This document shows, piece by piece, positions 35,905 through 64,000 of a DNA stretch of 64,000 nt. The position numbers and the translations under genes were made by a program. The stretch spans positions 211,451-275,450 of the forward strand of contig CAMXCT020000274.1 of assembly GCA_947184155.2 (NCBI GenBank), read 5' to 3'. Positions within the stretch are counted from its first letter, which is position 1. The number at the start of each line of letters is the position of its first letter. The notes beneath the pieces are model-generated. The model ran no database searches. It was not told the origin of the DNA and saw only the letters and a list, made by a program, of their open reading frames with translations. This stretch comes from Cladocopium goreaui. Taxonomy: Eukaryota; Sar; Dinophyceae; Suessiales; Symbiodiniaceae.

Positions 35905-38900
35905 CATACATACATACATACATACCATTACATACCATTACATACATTACATACATTACATACATTACATACATTACATACAAACTAATAACACATAAAC
36001 ATGACATAACATTACATAACAGTACAAGTTTTAACATAAATAACATACATTAACATACATAACATAAAATAACATACATAAACATACATTACATACATAC
36101 ATACATTACATACATTACCATACATTGCTTTACATGCAGTGAGAATTGCTTACTTGGGCGGGGGGAAGGGGGAGGGGGGGAAAAATAGGAAATACATATA
36201 CAAATTGCATACATTGCATACATTGCATACATTGCATACATTGCATACATTGCATACATTGCATACATTGCATACATTGCATACATTGCATACCTTGCAT
36301 ACCTTGCATACCTTGCATACCTTGCATACCTTGCATACCTTGCATACCTTGCATACCTTGCATACCTTGCATACCTTACATACCTTACATACACACATAC
36401 ACACATACACACATACACACATACACACATACACACATACAGACATACAGACATACAGACATACAAACATACATACAAACATACATACATGCATACATGC
36501 ATACATGCATACATGCATACACACATACACACATACACACATACACACATACACACATACACACATACATACATACAGACATACAGACATACAGACATAC
36601 AAACATACAAACATACAGACATACAGACATACAAACACATACACACATACANNNNNNNNNNNNNNNNNNNNNNNNNNNNNNNNNNNNNNNNNNNNNNNNN
36701 NNNNNNNNNNNNNNNNNNNNNNNNNNNNNNNNNNNNNNNNNNNNNNNNNNNNNNNNNNNNNNNNNNNNNNNNNNNNNNNNNNNNNNNNNNNNNNNNNNNN
36801 NNNNNNNNNNNNNNNNNNNNNNNNNNNNNNNNNNNNNNNNNNNNNNNNNNNNNNNNNNNNNNNNNNNNNNNNNNNNNNNNNNNNNNNNNNNNNNNNNNNN
36901 NNNNNNNNNNNNNNNNNNNNNNNNNNNNNNNNNNNNNNNNNNNNNNNNNNNNNNNNNNNNNNNNNNNNNNNNNNNNNNNNNNNNNNNNNNNNNNNNNNNN
37001 NNNNNNNNNNNNNNNNNNNNNNNNNNNNNNNNNNNNNNNNNNNNNNNNNNNNNNNNNNNNNNNNNNNNNNNNNNNNNNNNNNNNNNNNNNNNNNNNNNNN
37101 NNNNNNNNNNNNNNNNNNNNNNNNNNNNNNNNNNNNNNNNNNNNNNNNNNNNNNNNNNNNNNNNNNNNNNNNAGCATTACATTAACATTACATTACATTA
37201 CATTACCTTAACATTACATACATTACTTACATTACATTACATTACATTACATTACATTACATACATACATACATTACATACATACATTACATACATACAT
37301 AACATTACATTACATTACATTACATTACATTACATTACATACATTACATACATTACATACATTACATACATTACATACATTACATACATTACATAACACA
37401 ACATAACATAACATAACATAACATAACATTACATACATACATACAAAGATACACACGTGGCTATATTGTATCTGTTAGGAACAAAAGACTGGTTGGACCC
37501 GAAACATGGAACATTTCCAGTTTGGTGCTGAAAACTCCAATTCTGCTTGAGACGCCTTGCGTCTCAAACCAGGTGAACACTGTGGCTGGTTTCCCTGCCG
37601 AGATCGACCAGCTTGGGTTGAGCTTTAAGCTGTTTTGTTTTTTGCAACAGACAGAGGCAAAATGTCTGGAAATCTGATCCAAGTAGACGCTCAAGATAGA
37701 TGGTGAGGAAGTCTCCAATTTGCCCAACAGTGAGTGAAATATGACAACTACTAGTCATATTCAGCATCAAACCATTCCAGTAGCATTTCTAATTCAACTG
37801 TCAAGTTTGAACTTCCGGCATGGAAAGGAACAATGGCAATGCCACCTAACAATGGTTCGGGCAATGTGCCACGAACACTGGTATGGCATGTTACATTAAT
37901 ATTCTTGGCAGGTTATATGGGTATGGGTCAAAATTAGGTACCCCAAAATTATGGATGGTTAATACTAAACTAGACTAACATCTGTGGTTCCCTAGGTCTT
38001 CCATTTTGACCCACATCCATATGCAGTTCCTTAACAATCGCTATGTTTCCAGAAATCTTGGCTGTGTCCTACATGATCCGCTGATGGATGCTGATGCTTC
38101 AGTGTTCAGCCCATGTTGGCCGTTTCATCCCCCATTAAAATTCCGTGCAGCATGCTTCAATGCTCATGTTCATTGCTCAACATCTGTAATCATGGTTTAG
38201 ATCTTTACAATTTTAAGGCTGGTTGAAATCTTAAAAGCACGAACTAAAACTTATATGTTGACTATTGACCCAACACTCCAAAAAACATGTTACCCAATTT
38301 TCAGCTGGCAAAAAAAATGTTACACCTGTTTGACATCACCACGTTCTCCGTATCTCCCCCCCAAAAAAAACGCGGTGCCCAGTGCTCCACCGGGCGGCTC
38401 AGTTTGATGGCAAAGATCAAAGTGTTCGCTTGCCCGGGCCGGTCGTCGCGACCAGTGCCCAGCCTGGCACGAAAAACTTCACGGCCATCAAACGAATGAA
38501 CAAAATCCTGGAGAAAAAATAGAACATGATGAATATGGATTTTACATCTGCACTATTTTTTTGATTTTGAAAAAAACATATTCATCCATATTCTATCTAC
38601 TTCAGGATGATGAGTAGCTGCAACCAAAATAGTATGGTACCAGTATGGCTAGATTGACAGACTGGCCATCAATCTAGCAGCTAGGATCATAATCTAGCCG
38701 CTAAGGATCTTAGGATTCTTTCTGGGACCCACGCAACTCCATGTTCTTTTCAATCTTACAGAGACTCTCATAACCAATTTTCACATTAACAACTTCCAAG
38801 CAGAAACTGTTTTTGACCAAAATTGCGACGGGATTGATTGGCTTGTGGACTTGATGATCCTTTGCAATTTAGGAAGGAAACAACTAAACAAAATCATAGA

Positions 38901-55737: not shown

Positions 55738-56020
55738 GCAATGAGTAGAGCACTACGCCTTGCCGTACCCAATTGGTATTAAGAGTATCTTCCTGACTTC
55801 TCTACACAATGGCAAATAGCAAAAGAAACCGGAGTTACGCAGTGGCTTCGAATTGAAAAACACGTGAAAGCAGCGAATGTCCTAAGGACATGTCGAAAAA
55901 GAACAGCGGATTCGCTAATTTTTCCAGTAGTGACCAATGGTGCTTCGCGCACGGTCTCTCCACAGGCAAAATGCCTCGCTCTACCGGTGAAAGTTCGAAT
56001 TGAAAAGTTCGGGTTCGCAA

Positions 56021-56377: not shown

Positions 56378-59300
56378 TCATCGCCACTCACTTGATCTCC
56401 ATGGTCTGGACGCTGAAGATGAGGATCCACCCCACTCTGTGTTGCCCTGATACGTCGATGCTTGATCTTCATATGCCTTTCTCTTTTTCTCCTTCTGTCT
56501 TTCCTTTCTTGAATCAGCATACTGCTTCTTCTTGTAGGCCTGTTTGTAATGATGTCGTTCATTCCATGACATATCAGAAGGATCAAGATGGATAAGAATT
56601 GGATTATGAGCATCGCGATCATTTGGAGCAACCATGAAGATGTTGTGATCACCATGTAAGCAAGTTTCATTTACCTTGAAGTAAAATTCACCCACATAGT
56701 TCATGTGATCTTCATCCTCAAAGTCTTCTGGGTGTTCCTCACACATCAAACGTGAATGACCCCACTCAACAACTGTTAACATACAACAATCACCTTTACC
56801 ATTTGTCTTGTTCATGAGCTCGTCGGTGTATGTTGCTGTTGTAATGCCATCCAAGTGCGTTGCAAGAAAATCCAAGTCACGATAACTGCAAGAAATGAAA
56901 TGCTTGACCCTGATTGGAGGGCAAGATGAATCAAAATACTTGCGCATGGCTTGTGTTGCAACACCTACCATTCTGTTGATCCAGAATTGGATAAGGCTGT
57001 GTTGATATGTAGGGACACCTGGAGATTTTGGTGTGCTGTAATAGCATGCCTTGTTTCCATCACCTGCGATGAAGTCAACTTGATATCTGGCACACTCAAA
57101 AGCCATAACAGCTAAGCACTCACCAACAATCCCAGCAGAGTCTGATGCATACTTCTGTCCGACGTGATAAACGCACACACGTGTCATTCTCATCCTAGCT
57201 CTTGTCAAGTCAACAATCTCATCTGTATCTCGATCCTGTGTCTTTCCCCAAGATACTTCAAAGATTGCCCATGAGACTTGTCGAACTCGTGTGTCGTTGT
57301 CATCTGTGTGATATCCAGCAATTTGCTTGATATAGCCATCCTTTCCAAGGCGAGCTGCCACCATCAAGTCATGATAGTCATTGAAGCAAGTTTTAAAGTC
57401 AACCTCGTCGAGTCTTTCTCTGTGAGGATACAACGAACCAGCCTCGCAATTCATGAAAAGATGTCCTCCAAAGTTCTTGATGACATTGATGAAGTAATTG
57501 TTGAACTGTGATTTGGTTTCATCAAATTTTTCATGATCCTCATCGATAGTGTAGTCAATGTGTGGAATGAATTGTTGAAATCTTTCTGGAACCGGGCATT
57601 TTTCAAATCTATTTCTGCACCAGTTTCCCAAATTCCAAAACATTGCTGTTATCTGTGGAGAGGATCTGTATGGAAATTCAGCATCCTTGTACGTTGGGTC
57701 TGATAGGCCTCCACCTAAATACCTGTAAGCCAAGCTATGCAAGATCATACAGTAAGGCAAGACCTTGTGGTCCTCAACGTAATCTTGGAGTACCCTTGTG
57801 AGATTTCCAAAATCGTCATCAATCCTCTTTTCTGCTTCTTTTGAGGATCTTTCTGCTTTGTCTTGATGAAGAGGATGCATCCTTGGATCACTACAACCAT
57901 ATTCAATGCGCTGATTAAGTTCTTGTAATTCTAGTTGTGGATCCTGATTCTTGTGTCTGGCAATGTACTCAACCATCAACTGGTCATCTGTAAGATGGTA
58001 CCAGAAATCATGATGTGGAGACATGGTCTTCCTGTACTTAACATGCCAAAACATATGTCGATGCTTCGAAGACGCTGGATAACCTTTGTTGTAAAATCCT
58101 GCCCATTCACCATGGTAACCATCTGTAAAACAATCCTTCAATCTTCGAAAAACTGAATCATCTTCGTTTCCAGTGATATCTTGACCATAGTAAAGTCGAA
58201 CTGCAGGTTTCACTTCAGGAGCTGTCTCATCATCTTGAATGTCTGTCTTCTTCTCCCCTGATTCCTCCTTTTCTGAGGAGCGTTCAGGTGGAGCTGATTC
58301 CTCTTTCTCTGAAGAGCCTTCAGCTGGGACATGTGGCTCCTGTGTGTCTTTTTCTTCTTCTTTTTCTTCGTCAGCAATCTTCTCTTCTTCATCCTTTTCT
58401 TTCTCTTGTCCTTCTTCTGGTTTGACAAAACTTTCCTTGATCTTTCGTTGAACATTCTGATTGCACATACTGATCCATTTCAATGTACACTCAACCAATT
58501 TGTCATCATCAGTTTCCAAAATGATATGTTTGTCCTCAATGTTCAAACTTTCAATGGTATGCTTGTACTCAGGATCACCTGCGCCTGGTCTTTGAAGATC
58601 TGGAAGTGGAGTGTCTGGATCATCGTCCACCATATGAGGATCCTCTGCTCCAAAGAAATTTTCTGCGCCAAGGTGTTCATTGTCCTTGAGAACTTGGTCA
58701 ATATCCAGTTTGAACTCATAGTACTTGTCGTAAGAGATCTCATAACCCATCATAGGTGCATACTGCTCCATAAATGTTGAAAAGGAAGCATCTGATAATG
58801 CTGACATCATCAACCATAATGAGAAGAAGCTTATGTCACCACGTTCAAGGGGTTGACCTCCTTCAAGATCATCTCCTGTGAGGACTGATTGGCCTGCGAG
58901 TGTAATATCATGGAGGATCTGTCTGTGCTCTGGTTTGAGTTGCCTGACTAAGAACAGTCCCTGTCGATCTTCCATATTTCTTCGAGGATTTGCATCAGGT
59001 AATACCTCACTTTCTTGTTGTGGTTGTGTTTCCTCTCTTTCTTGAGAGCATACACCTTCTTCCTCTCTTTCCTGAGAGCCTGATGCCTTTTCCTCCTCTT
59101 TCCTGACAAAAACTTGTAGTCTTGGCAAAAACTCCAAATCATCTTCAGCATCATCATCATCGTGACCTTCCATGTCCACATTCTGTTGCTCTGATCCTGG
59201 GATGTGAGCGATCTTGTCCTTTCCATCTACCCAGATGTAGCCATCGAGCTTTGTAGATGTGTGGAAGTCACCTGAACCGCATTCCCTGACCTTTGTCCTT

Positions 59301-61969
59301 GCTCTTGCAGATTGATGGAATGCTTCATGCTGAAAGAATTGATTGTAGGCATGTTCAACAAAGAATCTGTAGGATTGAGCTGTCAATTCCTTTCTGCTAT
59401 CCACAAATTGTCGAAGCTTGTTCAAAGCAAAAACTGTGAAATGGCTAAAGCTAGCAGGTGCTTCATCTTCATACAGATCGATTGCCATGATCATCATCTT
59501 TGTGGAAAACGAGAAATGCCGTTCAGGTTCAGGGATGACTGTTCTCTTGTTCATGGGAACTGTAATTCCTTGAATAGTCATGTCATACCCATGTGTGTTC
59601 AACTCCAGTGCATCCAAAATGTTACCATCACGGTCCTTCTTTCTCCTGCAGAAATCTCCCCAGAGTTTGTTGTTCTCTCTAATGAACTGATCAAGATGCT
59701 TAGTGTAAAAGACAAAGACTGCTTCTGAGAGATACTCCATGTCCTTCTGTATTGCTAAGTCTCTTTCGTATAGCAAGAACTTCTCTCTCCATTCGTCTCT
59801 GTTGATACTGTGTCTGTCTTCCCAACCTGTTGGGGCAACTTGACCTCGCATCCAGTCTGTCCAATATTGTCGACAAGAGTCCATGTAACCTTCCATGGCT
59901 TCAATGTTTCCTTCTCGATGGAAGTGTGCCAACATGCGTCCAATCTCCCAAGCTCTTGTGAAGAGTAAGCATAGATGTCCTGTCCATGGTAACTTCTCCC
60001 AGTCTGAGCGAGTGATCGATTGTCTACGAAGTGCTATCTTTTGTGAAGAGAGTAGTAGGTTCCATTCACGCAGAACTATCACTTTTTCTCCTGAGGAGTT
60101 CTTGATGAGTTCACCGCTCTCTTCTCTTGCACAGACAATACCTGCCTCATACAGGACCCAGGGATTCGATGCAGAAATTGAACTTTTGGTAGCCTGTTCT
60201 ACAACAGGGTCTTCAATATCATCTGGTGGATCTTCTGCTTCCCAGAGGTTGACAACTTCTTCACCCATTGGGTCGTCCTGGACTTCCACTGATGGCTCCT
60301 CTTGTTGATTGTCTTGAGCATCTTGTTGAGGATCATCATGTTGTGGAGGTTCTGAACTTCCTGATGATGAGCGTTGTTGCTCCCATGCATCTTGAGGTTC
60401 CTCTCTTTCTGGAGAGCGTCCTCTTCTTGATGGCTGTTCATATGGGTTTTCCATGGTTTCATCAACTTGCGCAGATACCTCTCTCTCTTGAGAGCTTTCT
60501 GCTGCAACACCATAAATTGACTCCACAATAGGATCAAAATCTCTCTCGTTGCATAATGGTGTACCAAAAACCAATCTTCCATAGTTTTGTGGAACTTGTT
60601 GACCCATGAATTGCCATGCTGTAATTCTGACTTCATCAGGAATTTCTTGTCCAGGAATAAAACTTGGACCCTTCTCTTTCATGACATGTTTCCATGTGGT
60701 GTCCTTGTGCCATGAACCACCTGTAACTGATGGAGGTAGAGAATGACCACGTCCTTGATGAACAACATTGCATGCTATGGTGGGAATCTGTTCCTTGACG
60801 TGGAGGTACTGGAAAGGAATGTCACCATGAAATAAAACTACACCATTCCTTGTCAGGTAGAGTTGGTTATCCACAATAAAACTTGGATCCAACACGAGGT
60901 ACACTGGTCGCCTGTACACTCTTGGTGGCTTAGTGCCCTCTGCCATCCTGATGTAGCCCTGACCATTGTCATTGTGATACATAAAGTGGACTGCATCCCT
61001 TCTACCTTTTCCACTTCCTTTCACAAAGGTCTTCAGGCCTGATTGTTGAATGGAATCTAGGTTCATGTAATCAGTGACATGAAAAATCCAGCCCAAACTC
61101 ATAGCCTCATCGTATGTCAGTTGGTGATATGCCACAGTAGGATCGACAACTTGATTGCTATGTCCCTGACAAGCACCAAGACGAACGTCGAATGGATATT
61201 CTGCAGCTGGGCTATATGGGTACCACTTCCATCTCATGGAGATCTCAATAAAGAATCGTTTCTTTGGATTACACAGTAACATAGCAGCAAAATCTGCTCC
61301 CGACATGTGATACTCCTTTGGATTCCTGTCTTGCATCTGATCAAACAATATTGAAAGGTTCATAGCTCCACTGGTAGTGAACAATGTTTTGTCTCTGCAA
61401 TGTCTCAGCACTTCGGACATCTTCTTGCTACAAGACATGTAGTAACTTTTCCTCGATGAGCTAGTCATGTCCACATTGAAATCATTGCATCGTCCATCAA
61501 ACCAGTCTTCTTCTGCCTGAGTGGTAAAGCCACAGAGATACTTCAGAAAACTTGAAGTCCATTTCAAAGATTCATCAAATTCTCCATGACTAGTTCCCCA
61601 GTGCAAAATCCAAGCTATGGCGTCCATGAACATCTCATATCTGTCAGTTGCTCTCATGTTGTGTGGTCCCATCAATGTATGTAGATTGCGCTCTCTTCTC
61701 TTCCTCACATTCTCGTGAGCATGAAACCAATCTGTGCTGCGCCTGTAATTGTAGCAAAATGCTAAATGGTCCTCCTTGGGTAGTGTTGATGGTGTTCGAA
61801 ATCTGTCATCTGGGATTTCCTCTGATCTTCTCAGAGCATATCCATCAGATGAATGTGTTCCAGTAGCATCATTTCCAGAACTGTGATATTCTTGACCTCG
61901 AGTGTTAGATTGTGCCTGATCGCTAGATGATGCGGCTGAGGTCCTATTCCACCGGCTAGAGCTCGACAT
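56378..61969 (-). CDS. 1863-aa ORF with Tpt1-like and EEP-like domains
   Basis: Intronless ORF, ATG at 61967-61969, 71 nt after the copia stop and in another frame. Residues ~181-391 match KptA/Tpt1, the NAD-dependent RNA 2'-phosphotransferase: SEVLRHC (R189-H190), KKRFFIEI (237-244), RLGACQGHS (R263), SIQQSGL...GRRDAVHF (306-329) and NGVVLFHGDIP (375-385). The Arg-His-Arg-Arg set of bacterial Tpt1 appears present; the usual HGT is HVT. Residues ~1440-1800 match the endonuclease/exonuclease/phosphatase fold: WNLGNW (N1446), NCEAG (E1509), IAGDGNKA (D1637, N1639) and AHNPILIHL (H1788). This second call is weaker because inserts lengthen the spacing. Residues 490-600, 950-1000 and 1180-1255 are acidic Ser/Glu/Arg linkers; 600-945 and 1255-1440 are unrecognised. 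The position after pol suggests an accessory retroelement gene; alternatively it is a separate cassette. Confidence 0.8.
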   Translation of the reverse strand: MSSSSRWNRTSAASSSDQAQSNTRGQEYHSSGNDATGTHSSDGYALRRSEEIPDDRFRTPSTLPKEDHLAFCYNYRRSTDWFHAHENVRKRRERNLHTLMGPHNMRATDRYEMFMDAIAWILHWGTSHGEFDESLKWTSSFLKYLCGFTTQAEEDWFDGRCNDFNVDMTSSSRKSYYMSCSKKMSEVLRHCRDKTLFTTSGAMNLSILFDQMQDRNPKEYHMSGADFAAMLLCNPKKRFFIEISMRWKWYPYSPAAEYPFDVRLGACQGHSNQVVDPTVAYHQLTYDEAMSLGWIFHVTDYMNLDSIQQSGLKTFVKGSGKGRRDAVHFMYHNDNGQGYIRMAEGTKPPRVYRRPVYLVLDPSFIVDNQLYLTRNGVVLFHGDIPFQYLHVKEQIPTIACNVVHQGRGHSLPPSVTGGSWHKDTTWKHVMKEKGPSFIPGQEIPDEVRITAWQFMGQQVPQNYGRLVFGTPLCNERDFDPIVESIYGVAAESSQEREVSAQVDETMENPYEQPSRRGRSPEREEPQDAWEQQRSSSGSSEPPQHDDPQQDAQDNQQEEPSVEVQDDPMGEEVVNLWEAEDPPDDIEDPVVEQATKSSISASNPWVLYEAGIVCAREESGELIKNSSGEKVIVLREWNLLLSSQKIALRRQSITRSDWEKLPWTGHLCLLFTRAWEIGRMLAHFHREGNIEAMEGYMDSCRQYWTDWMRGQVAPTGWEDRHSINRDEWREKFLLYERDLAIQKDMEYLSEAVFVFYTKHLDQFIRENNKLWGDFCRRKKDRDGNILDALELNTHGYDMTIQGITVPMNKRTVIPEPERHFSFSTKMMIMAIDLYEDEAPASFSHFTVFALNKLRQFVDSRKELTAQSYRFFVEHAYNQFFQHEAFHQSARARTKVRECGSGDFHTSTKLDGYIWVDGKDKIAHIPGSEQQNVDMEGHDDDDAEDDLEFLPRLQVFVRKEEEKASGSQEREEEGVCSQEREETQPQQESEVLPDANPRRNMEDRQGLFLVRQLKPEHRQILHDITLAGQSVLTGDDLEGGQPLERGDISFFSLWLMMSALSDASFSTFMEQYAPMMGYEISYDKYYEFKLDIDQVLKDNEHLGAENFFGAEDPHMVDDDPDTPLPDLQRPGAGDPEYKHTIESLNIEDKHIILETDDDKLVECTLKWISMCNQNVQRKIKESFVKPEEGQEKEKDEEEKIADEEKEEEKDTQEPHVPAEGSSEKEESAPPERSSEKEESGEKKTDIQDDETAPEVKPAVRLYYGQDITGNEDDSVFRRLKDCFTDGYHGEWAGFYNKGYPASSKHRHMFWHVKYRKTMSPHHDFWYHLTDDQLMVEYIARHKNQDPQLELQELNQRIEYGCSDPRMHPLHQDKAERSSKEAEKRIDDDFGNLTRVLQDYVEDHKVLPYCMILHSLAYRYLGGGLSDPTYKDAEFPYRSSPQITAMFWNLGNWCRNRFEKCPVPERFQQFIPHIDYTIDEDHEKFDETKSQFNNYFINVIKNFGGHLFMNCEAGSLYPHRERLDEVDFKTCFNDYHDLMVAARLGKDGYIKQIAGYHTDDNDTRVRQVSWAIFEVSWGKTQDRDTDEIVDLTRARMRMTRVCVYHVGQKYASDSAGIVGECLAVMAFECARYQVDFIAGDGNKACYYSTPKSPGVPTYQHSLIQFWINRMVGVATQAMRKYFDSSCPPIRVKHFISCSYRDLDFLATHLDGITTATYTDELMNKTNGKGDCCMLTVVEWGHSRLMCEEHPEDFEDEDHMNYVGEFYFKVNETCLHGDHNIFMVAPNDRDAHNPILIHLDPSDMSWNERHHYKQAYKKKQYADSRKERQKEKKRKAYEDQASTYQGNTEWGGSSSSASRPWRSSEWR

Positions 61970-62004
61970 GTTGAAGAAACAGTACGATCCTCGAGACTCT
62001 GCCT

Positions 62005-62012
62005 CTTGAGCC
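62005..62012 (-). promoter_or_regulatory. Possible spliced-leader relic before the 1863-codon ORF
   Basis: The minus strand reads CGGCTCGGCTCAAG, whose last eight bases equal the end of the dinoflagellate spliced leader (TTTTGGCTCAAG). It lies 35 nt before the ATG. Upstream bases do not match well, so this may be chance. Confidence 0.25.
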
Positions 62013-62018
62013 GAGCCG

Positions 62019-62035
62019 CAGGCACAAATTCAAAA
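62019..62035. repeat. 17-bp direct repeat, pol-side copy
   Basis: CAGGCACAAATTCAAAA, identical to 55721-55737. It lies between the pol stop codon and the ATG of the 1863-codon ORF. Confidence 0.9.
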
Positions 62036-62040
62036 AATAG

Positions 62041-64000
62041 TCAAGAATCCCTCAAGATGTCACCTAACAGAAATACATCATGTCTGAAATCAACATGACT
62101 ACAAACTGTTGGCAACCATGACCTGAGGTAAGCTTTGTGTTCCAGTAACGATCTAAATGGAGGATGAGCATCAACTTCCTTAAGAACACCTTGTCGAACA
62201 GCATCAATAAGATTCTGAGGATTAGCAGACTTCTTAGTCAAACAATCAGCTAAACACCATTGAGTTCTGATATGTGACAAATCAGCAATGGAACCTGAAC
62301 ATGCTTCTTTCCTAAGCATCTGAATCATATGAATGGTCTCTTGTTGTTCAGGAACATGAGTAGTGCTGGCAGTAGTCACAAGATTGTTTGCATCAGTCCT
62401 CATATGAATCTCACTTGAAAGTTCAGTGATGTCCTTGATCAGTCCTCTCAACATTTGACATGTACCATAACACTTCATGAGTGCATACAACTCTGCAACA
62501 GTTGTGCTCAACGTGGTACGTTTGATTTTGGTTGATTCAAAGAAAATAAGAGAACCTCTGGTGTTTTTGCTCTTTTCCTTTCTCGGTTCAGCCATGAAAA
62601 TAACCATTGCGCGCTGTGAGGATTTGTCGCTGTTGTTCCTAAACGCTGCATCTGGCATTGCAACTAATCTAGGACCACCTTGCAGTGGCCAGAACATAAG
62701 TTCCATCGGGTCACCTACAATTTGCCTGTAAAGTTTGTTCAGCGTTTTGCAATCACCTATGGTGGGGGAAGCAGCGGCAGAAGCACAACGTGAAAACTGA
62801 TAACATGACTGAAATTGGGTTCTTGATTGTAACCAGTTGATACTACCTAAGAGTGATCTGTAGGCAGTGTGGAGATCTTTGTCACATTTGTCTTCATCCT
62901 TCAAACCTTTTGGTATGACAACCTCAGTAAGTTCACTGACGCAAAGTGATTGTTCAACAGTGATATGTGATTTCTTCTTGGTCTTCTCATCAATGGTCCA
63001 TTTCACACGTTGACCAGTGAACATCAAATCATTCACATCTTCATGACCAATCTTGAATTGTGACTTGACAACTTTCTTGAACTTCTCCAGAAACTCTGGA
63101 GTTCCTGTAATGAACAAGTCGTCAACATGCAAACAACACATGCCAATAGGTTTTCTTCCTTTGGCATTACTGCCATTCACAGGGTCCATGAAGTGTTCCA
63201 AGAGTTGTTCAACAATCTCTGGTGTCAACTGTGGTGTCGTGGCAAGATAAGTACGCTCTGAAGGTAAGAAGACTGAAACAAGTACTTCAGCTTCTTCTTC
63301 CAAACTTGTGGAAACATTGTCCTTGTTCATGTCATGATTCATCTCAAGCAACCACCAAACTCCTTTCCTCTTCACAATAGAAGTTCTCAAGGGAAACTTC
63401 TTTCGATCATAATGTGAATCAGGAGTTCTCAAAGCTTTTGCACGATAGGCAACTTGAGCATGACCATTTTCAAAAGGATACCAACCAGACTTGTGTTCAA
63501 CAGATTCCAAAAACTTCAACAAAGTTTCATCAACAACAGGAGTCCAAGCACAATCTTCAACCTTCTTCTCCTTGACCTCTTTCCTCTGTTTCCATGTTTG
63601 GGTTTGTTGATAGCAAGCTGAAAACAATCTTTCTTCAACCAAAAGAGACTTATGAACTTCCTCAGCAATGTCGGAGGATTCATCACGCGTTTCCTCACTG
63701 TCTTGTGAGCTTACGTAGTATGTCACAGGTGCTGGTTCTGTTGCCTCAGAGTCAGCAAAGCTAACCTGTTTTGGCTCCTTGAAAGCACCATCATAGCATA
63801 CATATGTACACCTGTCAGCTCTTGTAGGTTGAATACCAAGCGAAATCAGAAATTTGTCAAGGCGGTTCCACCATCTACGTGGTGCGTCCGCAAGTCCATA
63901 GACGGAACGAGTGCACAAACCAACCAAGTAAGGGGGCAAACCAATGTCAGTAGGCAACTGAACATGGATAACGCGGCGGTCTAAGTCGTATGTTTCCCCC
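62041..64000 (-). CDS. Ty1/copia polyprotein, reverse transcriptase-RNase H part
   Basis: The retrotransposon polymerase makes cDNA from the element's RNA. The frame is open to the right edge (no start in the window; upstream codons continue beyond the first Met-like codon) and stops TGA at 62041-62043. Counting from 63957: SVYGLADAPRRWW (18-30) is the copia YGLKQAPRxW motif; LHVDDLFITG (276-285) is the catalytic YVDD box with His for Tyr; the RNase H aspartate/glutamate set is PDAAF (D436), TTVAELYAL (E489), RTDANN (D522) and LADCLTK (D571). About 215 extra residues (57-272), acidic then Lys/Arg-rich, separate the fingers from the VDD box, where copia elements normally have a short loop. There are no stop codons or frameshifts, so the copy may be recent. 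Gag, protease and integrase lie off the window. Confidence 0.92.
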   Translation of the reverse strand, partial: GETYDLDRRVIHVQLPTDIGLPPYLVGLCTRSVYGLADAPRRWWNRLDKFLISLGIQPTRADRCTYVCYDGAFKEPKQVSFADSEATEPAPVTYYVSSQDSEETRDESSDIAEEVHKSLLVEERLFSACYQQTQTWKQRKEVKEKKVEDCAWTPVVDETLLKFLESVEHKSGWYPFENGHAQVAYRAKALRTPDSHYDRKKFPLRTSIVKRKGVWWLLEMNHDMNKDNVSTSLEEEAEVLVSVFLPSERTYLATTPQLTPEIVEQLLEHFMDPVNGSNAKGRKPIGMCCLHVDDLFITGTPEFLEKFKKVVKSQFKIGHEDVNDLMFTGQRVKWTIDEKTKKKSHITVEQSLCVSELTEVVIPKGLKDEDKCDKDLHTAYRSLLGSINWLQSRTQFQSCYQFSRCASAAASPTIGDCKTLNKLYRQIVGDPMELMFWPLQGGPRLVAMPDAAFRNNSDKSSQRAMVIFMAEPRKEKSKNTRGSLIFFESTKIKRTTLSTTVAELYALMKCYGTCQMLRGLIKDITELSSEIHMRTDANNLVTTASTTHVPEQQETIHMIQMLRKEACSGSIADLSHIRTQWCLADCLTKKSANPQNLIDAVRQGVLKEVDAHPPFRSLLEHKAYLRSWLPTVCSHVDFRHDVFLLGDILRDS

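Follow-up and report, generated by a model that had tools for sequence, protein, structure and literature searches.

In this study we describe nine short hairpins within two reading frames of a putative retrotransposon from the dinoflagellate Cladocopium goreaui, found in a stretch of 64,000 nucleotides that we call the window. The hairpins appear to be an RNA-level element that is kept by selection, the RNA itself carrying the repeated signal, because matching base changes preserve the hairpins where the protein differs. Our preferred interpretation, to which we give a probability of roughly 40%, is that they form a dispersed protein-binding signal, with Gag as the most likely reader and packaging as the most likely role.

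The hairpins and their carrier element

All nine hairpins were found where the original prediction had placed them. All have minus-strand orientation, and both ORFs are encoded on that strand too. Eight are held by an ORF of 1863 amino acids that follows pol (56378..61969, minus strand) and matches Tpt1/KptA (PF01885) at residues 179-380 of 1863, with 33.4 bits against a curated cut-off of 26. The ninth is in the 3' part of a Copia-type pol ORF (62041..63999, minus strand). The RVT_2 match (PF07727) of this second ORF, at 30.5 bits, is slightly below the cut-off of 31.6 in a frame that is incomplete, the end of the window being the end of the contig. PF07727 is also carried by P0019, a protein that matches the window's pol with 93% identity over 301 residues, and the protein P0039, named RE1 of Symbiodinium natans, shows 60% identity over 653 residues. 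Judged by this homology, the carrier is a Copia-type retrotransposon family of dinoflagellates. Self-comparison of four 20-kb stretches, each cut off close to the 3' end of the ORFs or short of it, gave no clear terminal repeat pair. For the last 614 residues of the Tpt1 ORF, the predicted structure was unusable (mean pLDDT 37.8) and a sequence search of solved structures returned no match. Relatives of the element were sought in viral contigs and genome contigs and none were found, so that the DNA comparisons are within one genome.

From low to high coordinates, and always on the minus strand, the series begins with H11 (58262..58281; GCTC-CT-CAGAAA-AG-GAGGAA) and H10 (58298..58317; GCTC-TT-CAGAGA-AA-GAGGAA), which are 36 nt apart and both encode SSEKEE; through two synonymous changes, a T-A pair of the H10 stem is C-G in H11. 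H9 (59030..59049; GCTC-TC-AAGAAA-GA-GAGGAA) and H8 (59060..59079; GCTC-TC-AGGAAA-GA-GAGGAA), 30 nt apart, both encode SQEREE. They are followed by H7 (60398..60417; GCTC-TC-CAGAAA-GA-GAGGAA, peptide SPEREE) and H6b (60476..60495; GCTC-TC-AAGAGA-GA-GAGGTA, peptide SQEREV). H5 (61701..61720; GCTC-AC-GAGAAT-GT-GAGGAA) is in another frame (AHENVRK), and H4 (61817..61837; GCTC-TG-AGAAGAT-CA-GAGGAA) has a 7-nt loop through which the frame shifts (ALRRSEE). The last, H3 (63691..63710; GCTC-AC-AAGACA-GT-GAGGAA, peptide SQDSEE), is in the pol ORF, and next to it we note a degenerate additional hairpin (63658..63677; CCTCCGACATTGCTGAGGAA, peptide SDIAEE) with four of five pairs.

The details of the original prediction also held. 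The tail is exactly GAA in eight hairpins and GTA in H6b, the loop of H4 is indeed 7 nt long, and the inner stem pairs covary as claimed (CT/AG, TT/AA, TC/GA, AC/GT, TG/CA). In seven of the nine, the first G is at codon position 2, giving the peptide S-x-x-x-E-E/V. H5 starts at codon position 1; the 5' half of H4 is in the frame of H5 and the 7-nt loop returns its 3' half to the main frame. The consensus in the sense RNA is 5'-G CUC xx loop yy GAG G-A/U/C-A-3', with the lower stem and the flanks almost invariant, the upper stem free provided that pairing holds, and the loop largely free.

Excess over chance

Shuffle counts rule out chance and codon bias as the source of the hairpins. Synonymous-codon shuffling, which had been proposed as a refuting control, gave a mean of 0.06 and a maximum of 2 hairpins in 2000 shuffles, far below the nine observed, and codon-order shuffling gave a mean of 0.0055. 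When the pattern was relaxed to one mismatch, the count was 11, and dinucleotide shuffles predicted 1.8. Scanning both strands of all 64 kb of the window under strict criteria (five perfect stem pairs, loop of 5-7, GAA tail) recovered the eight GAA-tailed hairpins and no further copy. Between positions 56000 and 64000 of the window, Rfam gave no match at gathering score and none at the hairpins, the single sub-threshold match (20.5 bits against 40) lying away from them; we therefore set aside a known Rfam family as their identity in this region. Folding alone is not exceptional: eight hairpins folded by themselves have energies of -3.7 to -8 kcal/mol, and compared with shuffles H10 is no better (z 0.01) and H11 reaches z -1.6.

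Covariation in DNA and protein

At the DNA level, 99.3% of cells are paired against 84.7% after shuffling, and two-sided changes number 23 against 6.4, values that were reached in 0 of 500 shuffles. Two of the five covariation measures, pairs with a two-sided change and pair types, are not above the shuffles. For a test on proteins we used 46 homologous proteins, including close copies of the window's family, with 95 distinct Ser-a2-a3-a4-Glu-x cores. In 61 of these cores, against 32.9 expected (z=6.4), codon a2 can have a first base complementary to the second base of codon a4. Nothing comparable came from controls with other motifs, spacings or base positions, apart from the pair that would lie next to this one in a longer stem (z=2.8). 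The other 34 cores misfit the rule, for example STQREA and STQRET in P0008, and SKEPEE and SPQDEE in P0016. For S-a2-a3-a4-EEP, 12 of 13 distinct residue pairs are complementary against 4.1 expected (0 of 20000). Third bases pair at nine of ten in-frame sites, and the remaining one is G.U.

These results bear on whether selection acts on the protein only, with S-x-x-x-E-E as, for instance, an interdomain protease site and the hairpins as a by-product. The constant residues are indeed S and E-E, the motif is located in linkers, and one frame contains 11 of the 13 sites that are found per copy of the element, which points to common descent by duplication or to the peptide also mattering. But the hairpins are lost in synonymous shuffles, and we see no peptide reason for the pairing of third bases, for the compensatory pair of synonymous changes that distinguishes the stems of H10 and H11, or for the complementarity of residues 2 and 4, and H4 and H5 involve other reading frames. 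We consider this explanation extremely unlikely, and reject it on the shuffles, the protein-level covariation and the third-base pairing. The hairpins are not confined to places where SQEREE is conserved; different peptides and different reading frames carry them as well, which together with the shuffles supports the earlier claim that the peptide does not explain them. The accompanying proposal of an RNA structure under selection, probably with a protein as its reader, is likewise supported.

Hairpins in other copies of the element

Three other copies of the element, scanned over most of their length, have 13 hairpins each, on the sense strand and inside ORFs. Beyond the hairpins of the window, element copies elsewhere have H1, H2 and a weak H2b, all located upstream, and some copies add H6a, a 33-nt tandem partner of H6b that is absent from the window. 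Within the gag-pol ORF the first hairpin is met after about 1.9 kb, and the Tpt1 ORF accounts for nine of the 13. By eye, most are in charged linkers that separate conserved protein blocks.

A DNA similarity search supplied 20 more copies in which the H2 site is kept; in its 23 rows, one pair is broken in L051 and one constant base is changed in L049, while H2b is poorly kept across copies. H4 shows zero changes across the 10 alignments counted, and H5 has one constant base changed in L030. The H5 stem is identical in the window and L012 and its loop is variable, the surrounding stretches being 89% and 81% identical to the C42 copy. C2657, chosen as the place most like P0004, belongs to the same family as the window element. 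With tandem gain and loss units set aside, the GCTC and GAGG positions are almost unchanging and the loops change like the flanks, in a count that leaves out H6a, and L012 at H8 and H9. An unsorted count, in which absent or misaligned tandem units are mixed in, makes the hairpins no different from the flanks. Hairpins of the SPxGEE type are few in the own genome (5 matches against 1 in the control), so that this class is seen only as protein.

The original prediction had also suggested a small hairpin that multiplies itself. Such a 20-nt insertion element could account for the many near-identical hairpins within one element, and there are 4168 genome-wide pattern matches against 931 with a reversed-pattern control. 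However, hairpin sites are shared between copies, and what is gained or lost are 30-36-nt in-frame tandem units; the 20-nt steps expected between orthologous sites are 30-36 nt instead. The window has no strict copy elsewhere, four isolated genome matches that we inspected, three from the five SPxGEE-type matches and one from the genome-wide pattern matches, have no evident shared context, and the copies examined contain no bare-hairpin presence or absence with a clean 20-nt gap and target duplication. We rejected the mobile insert on the tandem units, and it is the least probable explanation that we considered. Rickettsia palindromic elements and similar repeats are larger mobile inserts that place palindromic repeats within reading frames; the hairpins resemble them in this location, but are small, site-conserved and duplicated with linker sequence.

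A purely mechanical origin would produce covariation without selection. Quasi-palindromes are known to be corrected by mutation, and as a retroelement goes through reverse transcription, template switching could perfect imperfect inverted repeats. This process would not hold GCTC and GAGG near constant at many sites while loops drift, nor would it preserve one motif across families. In addition, 5-bp stems of any sequence lack a comparable excess (36 against 25.6 expected, sd 5.2, the 36 including the nine hairpins). We regard this origin as very unlikely.

Discussion

Our preferred reading is that of a packaging signal. The fixed letters at the stem base would be recognised by a sequence-specific RNA-binding protein, and the element's own Gag may bind many hairpins along one RNA, an arrangement that suits a packaging or assembly signal and from which we infer this role. 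Bound hairpins would then mark genomic RNA for virus-like particles. Short stretches of linker, duplicated in tandem and in frame, would give rise to new hairpins, which selection would then keep or lose. The gag part of the element has a long Lys/Arg/Gly-rich stretch, and such a basic stretch is in keeping with Gag as the reader.

In ssRNA viruses such as MS2, dispersed packaging signals are short stem-loops that share a recognition motif (PMC6281560). Our hairpins are similar in being multiple short stem-loops across genomic RNA with a shared motif on a variable background, and different in having their fixed letters at the stem base and 3' flank and not in the loop. A common sequence-structure motif at several sites and compensatory change that preserves structure are features shared with dispersed packaging signals. 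They also differ in that their carrier is a Copia-type element, for which coat-protein binding is putative. The packaging and dimerisation sequences known for Ty1 occupy the 5' terminus (PMC5454406). Both are cis-acting structured RNA in a Copia-superfamily element, but Ty1 has a 5'-terminal structured domain and here many copies of one simple hairpin extend across gag-pol and the later ORF. That the hairpins begin well inside gag-pol and lie mostly in the later ORF, unlike the Ty1 sequences, goes against packaging. The preferred reading is also weakened by the unexceptional folding, the two covariation measures at shuffle level, the single frame of most sites, the poorly kept H2b, the breaks in L051 and L049, the unsorted count and the protein cores that misfit the rule.

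The hairpins could also be bound by a host or element protein for another purpose connected with the very long mRNA of the element, such as its stability, its export from the nucleus, its localisation or its translation, which we judge possible if rather unlikely. The same evidence for an RNA element, from shuffles and from covariation in DNA and protein, applies to such a signal. The purine-rich loops and the GAGGAA tail presumably resemble sites of host RNA-binding proteins, and the position in linkers between conserved blocks would be as for pause-and-fold. Yet linkers may simply tolerate such sequence, and hairpins of these folding energies count as weak for ribosome stalling.

Another question is whether the hairpins are sites of cleavage and repair, at which a nuclease would cut, the ends would be rejoined and the Tpt1-like enzyme would remove the ligation 2'-phosphate, as in tRNA or HAC1-type splicing. 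A Tpt1-like recognition site at the hairpins is possible, given that the Tpt1/KptA match above the Pfam cut-off is in the ORF with eight of the nine; with seven of the nine in a single codon phase, joining any two of these would preserve the frame. IRE1/HAC1 splice sites are short mRNA hairpins, and Tpt1 acts there after ligation. Our element likewise combines short hairpins in mRNA with a Tpt1 domain, but splicing here is purely hypothetical and no conserved loop cleavage sequence is evident, since the loops change about as fast as the flanks. Furthermore, gag-pol also has hairpins, and removing segments would delete essential protein. Pfam found neither a nuclease nor a ligase domain in the parts of the element scanned. 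Overall, cleavage and repair seems doubtful.

The repeated covarying hairpin offers a concrete cis-signal for binding and packaging tests. As a point of method, amino-acid pairs across related elements can reveal RNA structure in coding sequence even without the DNA of those elements. More broadly, we see about even chances that this is a dinoflagellate Copia lineage with a dispersed hairpin code co-written with the protein code, a repeated assembly or cut-and-repair signal that would be read by Gag or by the Tpt1-bearing second polyprotein, and that would be detectable from protein sequence alone because residues 2 and 4 of S-x-x-x-E-E must be codon-complementary. In our literature searches we found no equivalent dispersed hairpin signal described for LTR retrotransposons.

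Hairpins in the window

All nine hairpins of the form G-CTCxx-loop-yyGAG-GAA that the original prediction placed between 58262 and 63710 were confirmed on the minus strand, from which the two ORFs carrying them are also read. H3 (63691..63710) lies in the upstream pol ORF, and H4, H5, H6b and H7-H11 in the downstream ORF. When all 64 kb of the window were searched under strict criteria (G-CTCnn, a loop of 5-7 nt, a perfect 5-bp stem, GAA), there were eight matches on the minus strand, the ninth known hairpin ending in GTA, and none on the plus strand. Nor do shuffled codons reproduce them: 2000 synonymous shuffles of both ORFs, the control proposed with the prediction, averaged 0.06 hairpins with a maximum of 2, and codon-order shuffles averaged 0.0055. 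Since 5-bp stems of any sequence are in no striking excess (36, the nine hairpins counted in, against 25.6 expected, sd 5.2), the signal is a specific motif. A relaxed pattern has 4168 matches in the 1.17-Gb genome, compared with 931 for a reversed-pattern control, and Rfam gave no match at the hairpin sites. Folded singly, eight hairpins have energies between -3.7 and -8 kcal/mol; H10 folds no better than its own shuffles (z 0.01), and the remaining ones reach z -1.6 to -3.7.

An S-x-x-x-E-E-type peptide is not always a hairpin. Among peptides S-x-x-x-E-[EVATM], all six in the large ORF have the motif, fully paired, while one of six in the pol piece does (H3). Three of the other five are unpaired, one is a degenerate further copy of the hairpin (63658-63677, minus strand, peptide SDIAEE) that lies 13 nt from H3 and has 4/5 pairs, and one (63295-63314, minus strand, peptide STSLEE) is fully paired in the DNA with a lower stem of TTC/GAA instead of CTC/GAG; this is possibly a relative of the motif, or else chance. 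A gag-pol ORF on another contig, C42, has four such peptides, two with the motif (H1, H2), one being the weak hairpin H2b and one unpaired.

The carrier element and its copies

The window lies at the end of a contig, and its upstream ORF, a truncated piece, covers the 3' part of a pol of Copia type; the RVT_2 match of this piece falls barely under the curated cut-off. The homologous protein P0019, with 93% identity over 301 residues, has the RVT_2 domain. Another homologue, P0039 (named RE1), shares 60% identity over 653 residues. Because P0039 and P0042 carry the name Symbiodinium natans, the genome is probably that of a dinoflagellate. The downstream 1863-aa ORF (56378-61969, minus strand) has a Tpt1/KptA match above the cut-off, its only Pfam match up to E=1; it follows the pol and has a conserved C-terminal block without Pfam match. 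In the homologue P0004 the pol end and Tpt1 region stand in the same order within one open frame. By its co-occurrence with the hairpins the Tpt1 domain may link them to a cut-and-repair process, our third choice of function and one that we consider improbable.

No terminal repeats were seen in the element stretches compared. Two copies (L021 on C42 and L016 on C25) have long degenerate tandem-repeat arrays directly upstream of the gag-pol ORF, and in the C46 copy an internal duplication of about 1.6 kb repeats the H4-H5 stretch at about 97% identity. Elsewhere in the window, 36089-37396 has overlapping long ORFs on both strands in very AT-rich sequence (GC 0.26 over 36001-38000).

We compared element copies at 19 loci on 10 contigs, taken from the first places listed by the hairpin-pattern search and so chosen through containing such hairpins, with one more copy found by protein search. 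The sites are shared at the same positions as far as each locus extends. The copies on C42, C24 and C25, each scanned over most of its length, have 13 hairpins each on the sense strand of the ORFs: H1, H2, H2b (containing a G.U pair), H3, H4, H5, H6a, H6b and H7-H11. Most antisense matches in these three are the same hairpins in reverse, and the few other stems on either strand lack the GCTC/GAGG frame. At 11 of the 13 sites, the exceptions being H4 and H5, the hairpin starts on the second codon position and encodes Ser-x-x-x-Glu-Glu/Val with highly varied middle residues (TEI, LKK, KKI, QDS, QER, PER, SEK).

The original prediction also considered a small hairpin element that multiplies, and asked whether 20-nt steps match. 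The window lacks H6a, as do several other copies, hairpin spacings are 30, 33 and 36 nt, and the homologues P0001, P0002 and P0013 have the motif duplicated in-frame as 12-residue units. These observations point to gain and loss of short in-frame tandem units, and we reject a bare 20-nt insert as the copying unit.

Constraint and covariation

With the C42 copy as reference, and without H6a (a unit gained or lost whole) and locus L012 at H8/H9 (where a tandem pair has collapsed), 99 site-by-copy alignments show 10 changes in 792 at the constant positions GCTC/GAGG, eight per hairpin, as compared with 1181/27107 (4.4%) in flanks and 30/604 (5.0%) in loops; with those cases included, constant positions (43/888) and flanks (1501/30385) do not differ. 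The ten changes comprise eight alignment gaps at the H6 tandem, one deleted base (L027) and one substitution (L030). Variable stem positions changed at 8/396 and the AA tail at 6/198. For H2, 20 copies, out of 40 that a DNA search listed, and three copies already compared gave 1/184 changes at constant positions (L049), 19/138 in the loop, 11/46 in the tail and 280/5519 in the flanks. Its stem has T-A in one lineage (4 rows) and C-G in others, with one broken pair in L051. H2b is poorly kept, most rows reading GCTT.

Across 28 distinct hairpin sequences, 99.3% of cells are paired (shuffles 84.7%), two-sided changes number 23 (shuffles 6.4) and the covariation score is 0.439 (shuffles 0.127), each with 0/500; the rows are mutually related and the shuffles therefore overstate independence. 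This set leaves out H4 (7-nt loop), H2b, the broken rows L027 and L030, an H5 variant with a GAC tail, the L012 form of H8 and the 20 further H2 copies. Sliding the partner abolishes the signal. Two other measures do not exceed the shuffles: pairs showing a two-sided change (2 against 1.8) and additional pair types (5 against 4.5). At ten in-frame sites from the window and the C42 gag-pol, pre-filtered for GC-TC-GAG so that free evidence comes only from the third bases of codons 1 and 4 and the final A, nine third-base pairs are Watson-Crick (joint probability about 10^-5.4 from codon usage) and the tenth is G.U. H10 and H11, 36 nt apart, differ by two synonymous stem changes with pairing kept.

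If in-frame hairpins persist in relatives, then in S-a2-a3-a4-E-x the first base of the a2 codon must complement the second base of the a4 codon. We tested this rule on 46 distinct proteins from three protein searches, comprising close copies of the window's own family (P0001, P0003, P0019, P0020) and others down to about 35-45% identity; found by homology and not by motif, they make the test, whose evidence is confined to protein, independent of the hairpin search. For S...E[EVAT], 61 of 95 distinct cores are compatible where 32.9 would be expected (z=6.4, 0/5000), in proteins that are related and hence mutually non-independent, and the next pair inward (a2 second base, a4 first base), which would lengthen the stem, fits as well (z=2.8, 22/5000). 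Twelve other X...EE motifs gave z of at most 1.1, two being low (-2.6, -2.5); five other S...XX motifs and ten other base combinations reached at most 0.8, and three other spacing tests 1.6. Counting distinct residue pairs, 36/67 fit for S...E[EVAT] against 22.6 (8/20000) and 26/44 for S...EE against 15.6 (6/20000). The S...EEP form fits in 16/17 cores against 6.2 and in 12/13 distinct pairs against 4.1 (0/20000): Ala-Ala, Glu-Pro, Gly-Ser, His-Arg, Pro-Gly, Pro-Arg, Gln-Arg, Ser-Glu, Ser-Lys, Thr-Ile, Thr-Val and Val-Pro, with Lys-Pro failing. All four base pairs occur, and where the proteins align at H2, SLKKEE is replaced by SFKKEV and SAPAEE, a change from T-A to G-C.

The 34 non-fitting cores include some plainly within conserved domains and, in linkers, STQREA and STQRET (P0008), SKEPEE and SPQDEE (P0016), SPQEEE (P0015) and SSQGEA (P0018), the last fitting if G.U is allowed. 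Most linker copies of P0004 and P0011 are SPQGEE or close forms, not SQEREE, with one STKVEE obeying the same rule; P0012 has SPKGEE.

We conclude that the hairpin is selected at the RNA (or at least single-strand) level at numerous sites within one element family, and that relatives of this family follow the same pairing rule.

Possible function

A lower stem fixed together with the bases flanking it, an upper stem that is free but paired, and a free loop suggest a reader protein that would contact the stem base and 3' tail. Such contacts may also belong to an RNA-binding role other than packaging, our second choice, which we regard as rather unlikely. Many copies on one sense RNA, through gag-pol and the later ORF, would suit a property of the full-length RNA, and a packaging or assembly signal is our first choice, with a probability of roughly 40%. 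A literature search with most subscription journals outside its scope (excerpts of PMC5890265 and PMC6281560 among the sources) returned no description of such hairpins. Ty1 packaging sequences are 5'-terminal, according to PMC5454406. The closest known system in manner of working, judging from the excerpts of PMC6281560, is the dispersed packaging signals of RNA viruses; the hairpins of this family would work like these signals rather than be counted among them, the coat-protein binding that defines them being putative here.
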